Position numbers and translations under genes: made by a program
Part shown: positions 2,345 through 4,639 of the stretch, piece by piece
Layout: every line of letters begins with the position of its first letter
How positions within the stretch are numbered: position 1 is the first letter of the stretch
The notes under the pieces: generated by a model
What the model was told of the DNA's origin: nothing
Seen by the model: the letters and a program-made list of their open reading frames with translations, nothing else
Databases searched by the model: none
Assembly (NCBI GenBank): GCA_963383645.1
Contig: OY726569.1
Location: 78,090,135 to 78,154,134, forward strand
Length of the DNA stretch: 64,000 nucleotides
From: Muscardinus avellanarius
Lineage: Eukaryota; Chordata; Mammalia; Rodentia; Gliridae
Reading direction: 5' to 3'

Positions 2345-2804
2345 ATGGCGGGGGCGACGCTGAGCCTGGAGCCCGCCGGCGGCGGCTGCTGGGACGAGCC
2401 GCTGCGCATCGCCGCGCGCGGCCTGGCGCCCGGGCAGCCGCTCACGCTGCGCGCGTGCCTGCGCGACGAGAAGGGCGCGCGCTTCCGGGCCCACGCGCGC
2501 TACCGCGCCGACGCCCGCGGCGAGCTGGACCTGGCGCGCGCGCCCGCGCTGGGCGGCAGCTTCGCGGGCCTGGAGCCCATGGGGCTGCTCTGGGCCCTGG
2601 AGCCCGACAGGCCGTTCTGGCGCCTGCTGAAGCGGGACGTGCGCACGCCCTTCGTCGTGCGGCTGGAGCTGCTGGACGGCCACGAGCCCGACGCCGGGCG
2701 GCTGCTGGCCAGCGCGGGGCTGGAGCGCCACTTCATGGCGCCCGGCGTGCGGCGGCTGCCGGTGCGCGCGGGCCGGGTGCGGGCCACGCTCTTCCTGCCG
2801 CCAG
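2345..2804 (+). CDS. ACOT4: ACOT4 exon 1 (N-terminal domain of acyl-CoA thioesterase 4)
   Basis: This exon encodes residues 1-153 plus one base of codon 154. It begins at ATG 2345 in good context (G at -3, G at +4) with MAGATLSLEPAGGGCWDEPL and ends at CCAG|GTGAGT, the conserved phase-1 boundary of type I ACOTs. The encoded beta-sandwich BAAT/acyl-CoA thioesterase N-terminal domain packs against the catalytic alpha/beta-hydrolase domain; family landmarks CWDEP, ARGELDLARAPALGGSF and GLEPMGLLWALEP are all visible. With exons 2 and 3 it makes a 421-residue protein, the usual ACOT4 length. ACOT4 acts in peroxisomes, chiefly on dicarboxylyl-CoAs such as succinyl-CoA in characterised orthologues. 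From 2382 to 2809 the DNA is identical to the other two ACOT exon 1 copies here, so only exons 2 and 3 identify the paralogue. GC content is extreme (CpG-rich) compared with exons 2 and 3. Confidence 0.93.
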
Positions 2805-4639
2805 GTGAGTCGCGCTGCGCTGGAGTCAGCTCAGGACCTGGCCTCAGCTAGATTCCCGCGCAGTTCTAGCTGGAGTTTGGCCCCTGTCAGTGGTCCCTCT
2901 ATCATATTTTGATATGTTAGGCTCTCTTATACACTGCCTTTTATTTGCATTGTCTCCCTTAATCTCGGTAATGTCCCTATGATGTGGATACTGCTATTCT
3001 ACAGATGAAAAAACAGGCTCACTTGTTATTGATCGCTGCCCCTGTAGACTCTCCAAACCTTGGGGGAAAGGTGACAGTCAGGGAAGTCAAGACAGTCCTG
3101 TGTCCCTCTCTGTTCTGGGCACACGGGGCTGCTTCTCCACTTCTTCAGTGACCTGTGTGCTGAACACACTTCATTCTAGTGCCAGGCTCACTAGAAGCCA
3201 ACTCTGGGTATTTTTCTTTCCTCTCTGCCTAGACATCTGAAATGTCCCTACACAAAATACCTCCGGGGTTGTTGCAATACATCCAGCTATTTTACCCCTC
3301 CGCGCCCTTGGATACTGTGCATTGAACCTAGAAATGTTCTACCTTTGAGCTACACCCCCAGTCGCCTTTCTTTCTTGAAACAGGGTCTTGCTAAATTGCT
3401 GCGGCTGTTCTTGAACCTGTGTCTTCCTGTCTCAACCTCCCAAGTACTAGGATTATAGGTAAGCATCACCTCACCTGCATGTTTTAAATCTTTGTGTATG
3501 TGTGGGTGATACTGGGGATTGAACCCAGAAGGGCATTCTACCTCTGACTTTCATCCCTAGCTCTACTTTTTATTATCTATTTTGAAACAGGGTCTTACTA
3601 AGTTGCAAAAGGCCTCACTAGGTAGCTGAGGCTAGCTACAAACCCTCTGATCCCAGCCTCCCAAATCCTGGGATTACAAGTGTGTACCACAATGCCCAAC
3701 TTCTGTTTTGCATTCTTAATTCTTTGCCCCATACCCCAGTAGCACTCTCAATCAACACTAAGGAAATTCCGTCCACCATGTATGCAGTAACAAAAGATTT
3801 GTTATTCTCCCTTAGAATAACCTATGATTCTTTGAACCCTGCATATAACTCACCATTGAAGCAAAAGGAGGGTTTAATAATAAATCAGTGCCGCCGGGCG
3901 TGGTGGCGCACACTTGTAATCCCCACGCTTGGGAGGTGGAGACAGGAGAATCGCGCAGGTTCGAAGCCAGCCGTGCTGGCGTAAGAGACCCTGTTTCAAA
4001 AATATATTAAAAAAATAGGTCTAGGAGTGTATCCCGGAGTTAGAGGGCTTCCAGGAACCCCAGTACCACCAAAATAAATAAATAAATAAAAATAATAATA
4101 ATGAATCAGTGCCAAATTACCCTGTTTTGAATTTGTCCTCTCAGAAGCATGTTTCTCTTTTTAGTAGTGACTCAGGGACTGCCCACTAAAGAACTAAATA
4201 ACTTAGAATTATTTTTTAAAGGACAACAATTGCCAGGCGTGATGGCACACGCCAGCACTTGGGAGGCTGAGACAGGAGGATCGCACAGGTTCCAAGCCAG
4301 CCTCAGCTACTTAGTGAGGCTCTTAACTTAGTGAGACCCTGTTTCCAAATAAAATATAAAATAGGTCTGGGAGTATAGCCCGGAGGTAGAAAAGTCCTGG
4401 TTTCCACCCCCAGTACCACCAAAATAAATAAATAAATAAATAAATAAATAAAATTTAAAAAAAAAGAGAACAATTTTTCTCTGTGTGTGGTACTAGGGAC
4501 TGAACCCAGCGGCATTCTGCCTCTGAGCTACACGCCCAGCCCTGTTTTATTTTAAAATAAGTGAGCTGATCACAGGTAGATGATTCCTGTACTGCTACAT
4601 CCATCAAGCAGGGTGTTGGCAGAGCAACAAAGATAAACA

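Follow-up and report, generated by a model that had tools for sequence, protein, structure and literature searches.

The stretch of DNA analyzed here (the window; 64,000 nt, C12:78090135-78154134, contig OY726569.1) comes from the 2.5-Gb genome of Muscardinus avellanarius (GCA_963383645.1) and covers part of a tandem array of at least five type-I ACOT genes, c1 to c5, of which c3, c4 and c5 lie inside the window and c1 and c2 upstream of it (Table 1). Each gene has three coding exons, of which exon 2 measures 203 bp, and all five retain intact reading frames that encode, without a break, an N-terminal PF04775 and a C-terminal PF08840 domain. Profile searches of the genome yielded nine PF04775 matches among 10 scored candidates and eight PF08840 matches among 20, corresponding to the c1-c5 loci and to a second cluster on C13, which we take to be BAAT/ACNAT. 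The exon 3 translations of all five genes contain Ser (G-x-S-x-G), Asp and His motifs, presumably those of the thioesterases, from which enzymatic activity is predicted. Genes were assigned to classes by the identity of their exons 2-3 to c2, c3 or c5, with names taken from protein database sources; on this basis c3 is ACOT4-like, c5 is ACOT6-like, and c1, c2 and c4 are ACOT1/2-like. The encoded proteins end in SRL (c3), AKL (c2 and c4) and SKI (c5), all of which we take to resemble peroxisomal signals, while c1 is without such an end and has a longer N-terminus when read from its first in-frame ATG. The mammalian type-I ACOT cluster comprises ACOT1, 2, 4 and 6 (Acot1-6 in rodents), and c1-c5 resemble it in their tandem arrangement, their three coding exons, the combination of PF04775 with PF08840, and the peroxisomal-type ends or longer N-terminus. 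Between c2 and c3 there is also a 1344-bp direct repeat (C12:78078939-78080282 and C12:78087281-78088624, 99.85% identical), the product of a further duplication or conversion of very recent date within the array.

Table 1. Exons and shared tracts of the three ACOT genes inside the window (positions counted from the first base of the window)
Feature	Positions	Strand	Basis
c3 (ACOT4-like) exon 1, ATG to exon end, PF04775	2345..2804	+	gene model, profile search
c3 copy of the 428-bp five-gene block	2382..2809	+	sequence identity
c3 exon 2, 203 bp, diverged	7890..8092	+	gene model, dS
c3 exon 3 to the stop, encoding catalytic BAAT_C (PF08840); protein end SRL	9534..10136	+	
899-bp c4-c5 tract in c4 (block preceded by 461 bp and followed by 10 bp of intron)	18169..19067	+	
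c4 part of the exact 647-bp c2-c4 tract, 184 bp past the block into intron 1	18595..19241	+	
c4 (ACOT1/2-like) exon 1, from nearest in-frame ATG	18596..19052	+	
c4 copy of the 428-bp block	18630..19057	+	
c4 exon 2	22080..22282	+	
c4 exon 3 with stop; protein end AKL	26410..27009	+	
c5 copy of the 899-bp c4-c5 tract	35766..36664	+	
c5 (ACOT6-like) exon 1, from nearest in-frame ATG	36193..36649	+	
c5 copy of the 428-bp block	36227..36654	+	
c5 exon 2, diverged	41482..41684	+	
c5 exon 3 with stop; protein end SKI	44989..45594	+	

The first-pass annotation had drawn attention to 428 bp of exon 1 that appeared the same in the three window genes and ran a few bases into the intron donor. The identity is indeed complete, each of the three window pairs agreeing at all 428 bases, and the block consists of 423 bp of exon 1 followed by five bases of the donor (GTGAG). 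The count of three copies proved too low: querying the whole genome with the block gave at least five full-length 100% matches (all five scored candidates), on the same strand and within ~102 kb, the two beyond the window being those of c1 and c2 at C12:78024293 and C12:78070112. Because the ATG of c3 lies 37 bases 5' of the block, a short N-terminal part of exon 1 falls outside the common segment.

The 140 codons of exon 1 common to the five genes contain 121.7 synonymous sites (100 fourfold codons), and none of the 10 pairs shows a single difference there, so that dS is 0. Elsewhere the genes differ widely: in the seven cross-class pairs dS is 0.84-1.80 in exon 2 and ranges from 1.15 to saturation in exon 3, and between classes exons 2-3 have a nucleotide identity of 0.63-0.71 and a protein identity of 0.56-0.61. 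Within the ACOT1/2 trio of c1, c2 and c4 the dS of exons 2-3 is 0-0.067, and these exons (for example that at 26410-27009 of the window) may, to judge from their near-identity beside upstream flanks that do not align (see below), have been homogenized too. In a GENECONV-type test on the five-gene coding alignment (1200 sites, 2000 shuffles per pair) the cross-class pairs have identical runs of 421-425 bp as against a shuffled maximum of 46-55 bp, and the result was 0/2000 in nine of the 10 pairs; the c1-c2 pair was not significant (126/2000) because those genes differ at just 12 sites overall. Chance is excluded as the source of the identity of the block, and two of the checks proposed with the original observation, pairwise dS by exon (here within this genome) and the shuffle test, bear it out. 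If 2-4e-9 substitutions per site and year are assumed, the last common homogenization of the five copies has a 95% upper bound of ~0.35-2.3 million years, depending on the rate and on the sites counted.

It could be supposed that strong purifying selection on exon 1, acting on the protein or on the DNA itself, has kept the copies alike with no exchange between them. Exon 1 does encode a folded domain, and its residues have changed between orthologues somewhat less (17-19%) than those of exons 2-3 (20-24%). Nevertheless, the lack of any change at the synonymous sites, for which the annotation had already argued that independent purifying selection cannot freeze third codon positions, and the observation that exon 1 varies between species but in step within each species (see below), reduce the probability of this explanation to a negligible one.

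The exact identity has different limits in different pairs. It extends over 899 bp in c4-c5, 461 bp of which lie upstream; over 647 bp in c2-c4, where it reaches 184 bp past the block in intron 1; over 473 bp in c2-c5; over 450 bp between c1 and each of c2, c4 and c5; and over 428 bp in any pair with c3. Past the block, the identity in the intron is at most 10 bp in all pairs other than c2-c4. A search of the 700-bp flanks found no homology beyond the continuations of the tracts (c2, c4, c5) and a few other matches, namely a 28-bp N-terminal stretch common to c1 and c3 and short or repeat-like segments (one of 34 bp in c1-c3; two in c4-c5, of 37 bp and 209 bp, with an identity of 88-89%). The tracts differ from one set of copies to the next and stop at the limits of homology. 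The c4-c5 tract includes the start codon together with the 5' flank, so that upstream DNA is common to an ACOT6-like gene and one of the ACOT1/2 type. The suggestion that conversion is confined to exon 1 is therefore correct as to where it is centered but too narrow as to its extent, given the 461 bp upstream in c4-c5, the stretch of intron 1 in c2-c4 and the near-identical exons 2-3 of c1, c2 and c4. The upstream flanks of this trio show no alignment past 35 bp, and the start of intron 1 of c1 is unalignable.

Other mammals were compared as proteins, silent sites at the DNA level being those of this genome alone. Three protein searches, from which the best 120 matches each of 1256, 1007 and 935 were taken, provided 305 different proteins; 145 of these from 68 named taxa, all placentals, were hand-picked by named species, with the omission of all six models of more than 500 residues, of proteins without a named source and of many from named species related to ones already chosen. 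Two or more ACOT classes are represented in 48 taxa. In the within-taxon cross-class pairs (32, 31 and 38, a total of 101) the median identity of exon 1 is 0.954, 0.957 and 0.939, and that of exons 2-3 is 0.609, 0.596 and 0.594; individual exon-1 pairs within the 48 taxa range from 0.814 to 1.000. Orthologues from different species have medians of 0.807-0.829 in exon 1 and 0.764-0.798 in exons 2-3. Of 123 proteins, 83 have an exon 1 closer to a same-taxon paralogue than to any orthologue of a different species, 34 are closer to an orthologue and six tie, so that homogenization is incomplete in places; for exons 2-3, the paralogue is closer in one protein and the orthologue in 122, with no ties. 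In four taxa the proteins come from two congeneric species (Marmota, Camelus and Equus, which are among them, also enter the trees below), and without the four the paralogue, orthologue and tie counts are 75/31/6 of 112 for exon 1 and 1/111/0 for exons 2-3. Along the protein, the identity of 91 same-species paralogue pairs is 0.91-0.98 through exon 1, except for a dip to 0.79 at residues 73-84, and it is 0.86 at the exon 1/2 junction and 0.31-0.89 thereafter. Rodents are more homogenized in exon 1 (0.970, n=12) than the other taxa (0.918, n=36; p 0.0004, uncorrected for kinship).

Recurrence of the pattern at the protein level in many species much reduces the worry of an assembly artefact, in which a single exon-1 sequence would have been pasted or polished into five places. 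Perfect identity across a very GC-rich stretch is the kind of result that invites such a suspicion, but the ends of the tracts vary by pair and halt where homology does, and public proteins of 48 other taxa have a like homogeneity of exon 1 within each taxon; we regard an artefact as very improbable.

The same protein set contained some unusual models. Five from other mammals (P0001-P0005) are predicted fusions in which a single exon-1 domain is followed by complete or partial exons 2-3 from two ACOT classes. The order is ACOT1/2 then ACOT4 in four and ACOT4 then ACOT6 in P0003, and the models may reflect either readthrough in which exon 1 of the downstream gene is skipped or faulty annotation. 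Two ACOT6-like proteins (P0121 and P0164) bear the source name of dynein axonemal light chain 1, possibly an error of naming or gene merging. In human ACOT4, a passage of PMC12940796 describes a common ten-base in-frame multi-nucleotide variant. In general, clustered changes like these can arise by conversion with a paralogue.

Phylogenetic trees of the two parts of the protein are inverted with respect to each other. The alignments had 56 rows, comprising c1-c5 and the first protein per class from 17 of the 18 three-class taxa, Lemmus having been excluded as its gene models looked mixed. In the exon-1 tree the species label requires 17 changes (the minimum) and the class label 36; 16 of 18 species (the exceptions being Trichechus and Tenrec), and none of the three classes, form one side of a branch, and c1-c5 fall among the rodents. 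The repeats likewise resemble a rodent B1/ID-type SINE, and a carnivore origin was discarded, two SINE consensus fragments having given no match at up to 2 and 3 mismatches. In the exons-2-3 tree the class label requires two changes (the minimum) and the species label 51, and all three classes but 0 of 18 species form one side of a branch, a grouping by class that is partly built in through the assignment of classes from exons 2-3. Starred inner branches number 9 of 47 for exon 1 and 12 of 53 for exons 2-3, and many single forks are weak, several of those on exon 1 having support below 80. AU tests of exon 1 were run on the 45 rows that remained without the window genes, Trichechus and Perognathus, where rows are identical between classes, and they rejected both a clade of ACOT4 (p 1e-5) and one of ACOT6 (p 1.9e-8). 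For exons 2-3 the AU test rejected a clade of c1-c5 (p 5e-8). Since each class is one side of a branch on exons 2-3 across the 17 taxa and this genome, the ACOT classes predate the species. The warning that exon 1 cannot be used to assign orthology is borne out by the same trees, which group by species on exon 1 and by class on exons 2-3.

These trees also bear on the idea that whole genes were duplicated recently in each lineage and that exons 2-3 then diverged rapidly. The three ACOT1/2-like genes, being recent or homogenized in exons 2-3, would agree with such a course of events; however, the ACOT1/2, ACOT4 and ACOT6 classes are older than the species, and the rejection of a five-gene clade on exons 2-3 weighs directly against it, leaving it barely credible. 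Repeated conversion centered on exon 1 of the ACOT genes is instead strongly supported, because dS is 0 in exon 1 as against 0.84 to saturation in exons 2-3 between classes and because the trees of the exons are inverted. We consider it very likely that the five genes are a case of mosaic concerted evolution, in which exon 1 has been overwritten by interlocus gene conversion and exons 2-3 have diverged by class.

The annotation had further connected the composition of the block with GC-biased conversion. The GC content at third codon positions (GC3) is 0.993 in exon 1 versus 0.43-0.70 in exons 2-3, and 420 bp of exon 1 contain 73 CpG. At the protein level, the identity of exon-1 paralogues correlates over the 48 taxa with the content of Gly, Ala, Arg and Pro (GARP) in exon 1 (rho 0.70, p 3e-8) versus a rho of -0.04 for the GARP of exons 2-3. 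This correlation is controlled in part, and weakly, for phylogeny by 19 sister pairs of mammals, picked after the values had been seen, of which 13 agree, three disagree and three tie (p 0.021). The exon-1 GARP of this genome is near the top, only four of 145 proteins being equal or higher, and a protein proxy gives seven changes toward GARP and two away in exon 1, as compared to three and two in exons 2-3 of c3. Taken together, the greater richness of the more homogenized exon 1s in these residues, whose codons are GC-rich, fits GC-biased conversion without proving it.

A second cluster, on C13, separates conversion from base composition. Two ACNAT/BAAT-like genes there (C13:33575001-33585000 and C13:33615001-33625000) have introns ~80% identical, whereas their exon 1 is 98.5% identical (0.96-1.00 in 100-bp windows) at a GC of 0.45; an island of ~500 bp at 0.94-1.00 should, from its position, hold exon 2, and exon 3 is patchy. 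The identity of the islands at exon 1 and around the expected exon 2 is ~98-99%. The dS of the pair is 0.034 in exon 1 versus 0.136 in exon 3, and against a third C13 gene neither exon is homogenized (dS 1.4-2.1). Gene conversion has thus probably taken place in this GC-poor cluster as well, and, as the pair is homogenized at 45% GC, conversion in the ACOT/BAAT family would need no high GC. The link to GC-biased conversion accordingly has partial support, from the GC3 and the GARP correlation of exon 1, but high GC as a necessary condition is ruled out by the C13 pair. G-quadruplexes were likewise considered as a trigger of conversion and discarded, since motifs are predicted only in the vicinity of c4 and c5 and none falls within the block, which leaves them no general role. 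The C13 cluster also contains a PF04775 exon (C13:33592798-33593175) with an in-frame TAG and no PF08840 partner among the scored candidates, possibly a pseudogene.

A variant of the conversion reading would have selection for a uniform N-terminal domain or a shared promoter (through dosage or compatibility of oligomers) sustain the exchange, rather than dynamics limited by homology. In its favor, the homogenized segment corresponds to one protein domain, 461 bp on the promoter side belong to the c4-c5 tract, and Carson and Scherer (2009; PMC2720389) speculate on selection for binding domains in the pairs they studied. The tracts, however, end at the limits of homology and not at functional limits, and conversion-like islands are also present in the GC-poor C13 pair, in exon 1 and the ~500-bp island. 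We judge this variant unlikely, though far from negligible.

Homology-limited conversion suggests how the present state of the cluster could have emerged. Exon 1, which encodes PF04775 and lies inside a CpG island, would have been repeatedly overwritten among the paralogues, so that its copies remain alike within a species, while the exons 2-3 for the catalytic PF08840 have diverged by gene class. With the ends of the tracts being the ends of homology, conversion may have become trapped in exon 1 as introns and promoters ceased to align, and by its own action it would keep the copies of exon 1 similar enough to be converted again. Exons 2-3 of different classes, once diverged, would have fallen below the threshold for conversion, whereas those of c1, c2 and c4 are still near-identical. 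GC-biased repair could have raised exon 1 to its present GC3 and its Gly, Ala, Arg and Pro content, and the CpG island may contribute open chromatin.

Mosaic concerted evolution as such is already known; the ACOT case stands out by its single-exon limits, the number of genes and its taxonomic depth. GC-biased gene conversion occurs in conserved multigene families such as the histones and Hsp70, with extreme GC3 in the converted coding segment. The ACOT genes are like these in having a converted coding segment of extreme GC3, and differ in that the bias may also have shifted the amino-acid make-up, a comparison that outside this genome is at the protein level only. In the sections of Carson and Scherer (2009; PMC2720389) that concern BMP8A/B, DDX19A/B and TUBG1/2, mosaic concerted evolution of more than 100 million years with signals of gene conversion is described, and as in ACOT the concerted evolution within species affects part of the exons, the rest being divergent. 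Those cases are pairs with blocks of several exons plus introns and, in the same sections, no clear relation to domains, whereas the ACOT case involves a single exon, three classes and mostly non-homologous borders, and matches one Pfam domain. The screen described there called for two consecutive exons and an intron above 97%, as opposed to the merely partial homogenization of non-coding DNA in the ACOT genes (461 bp in c4-c5, 184 bp in c2-c4). Such an intron requirement is that paper's filter against purifying selection and no defining feature of conversion; the screen would probably miss the ACOT case, and a word search of the main text of PMC2720389 does not find ACOT. Among the papers listed for ACOT with gene conversion, for the evolution of the ACOT cluster, for concerted evolution of thioesterases and for gene conversion in general, as searched outside subscription papers, we found no report of exon-confined conversion in ACOT, nor any paper combining ACOT1, ACOT2 and gene conversion.

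Nonallelic conversion may, according to a passage of a 2023 paper (PMC10100218), explain the similarity of promoters in recent duplicates. In c4 and c5 common upstream DNA is found in genes whose exons 2-3 are only ~58% alike in protein. As a tentative proposal, somewhat short of an even chance in our view, exon 1 might have been, throughout the evolution of placental mammals, a shared, continually recopied module whose N-terminal residues GC-biased conversion changes in lockstep across the paralogues while the catalytic domains specialize, with the upstream DNA of c4-c5 coupling their regulation.

For practical purposes, exon 1 is unsafe within the ACOT cluster for orthology, assignment of reads, design of probes or guides and calling of variants, and trees built from whole ACOT genes blend two histories. 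For the biology of the family, two halves of one gene with opposite trees, in 17 mammalian taxa and this genome, make an unusually clean natural case, in which the limits that homology, intron decay and CpG-island chromatin set to conversion, and whether GC-biased conversion alters proteins, can be tested.
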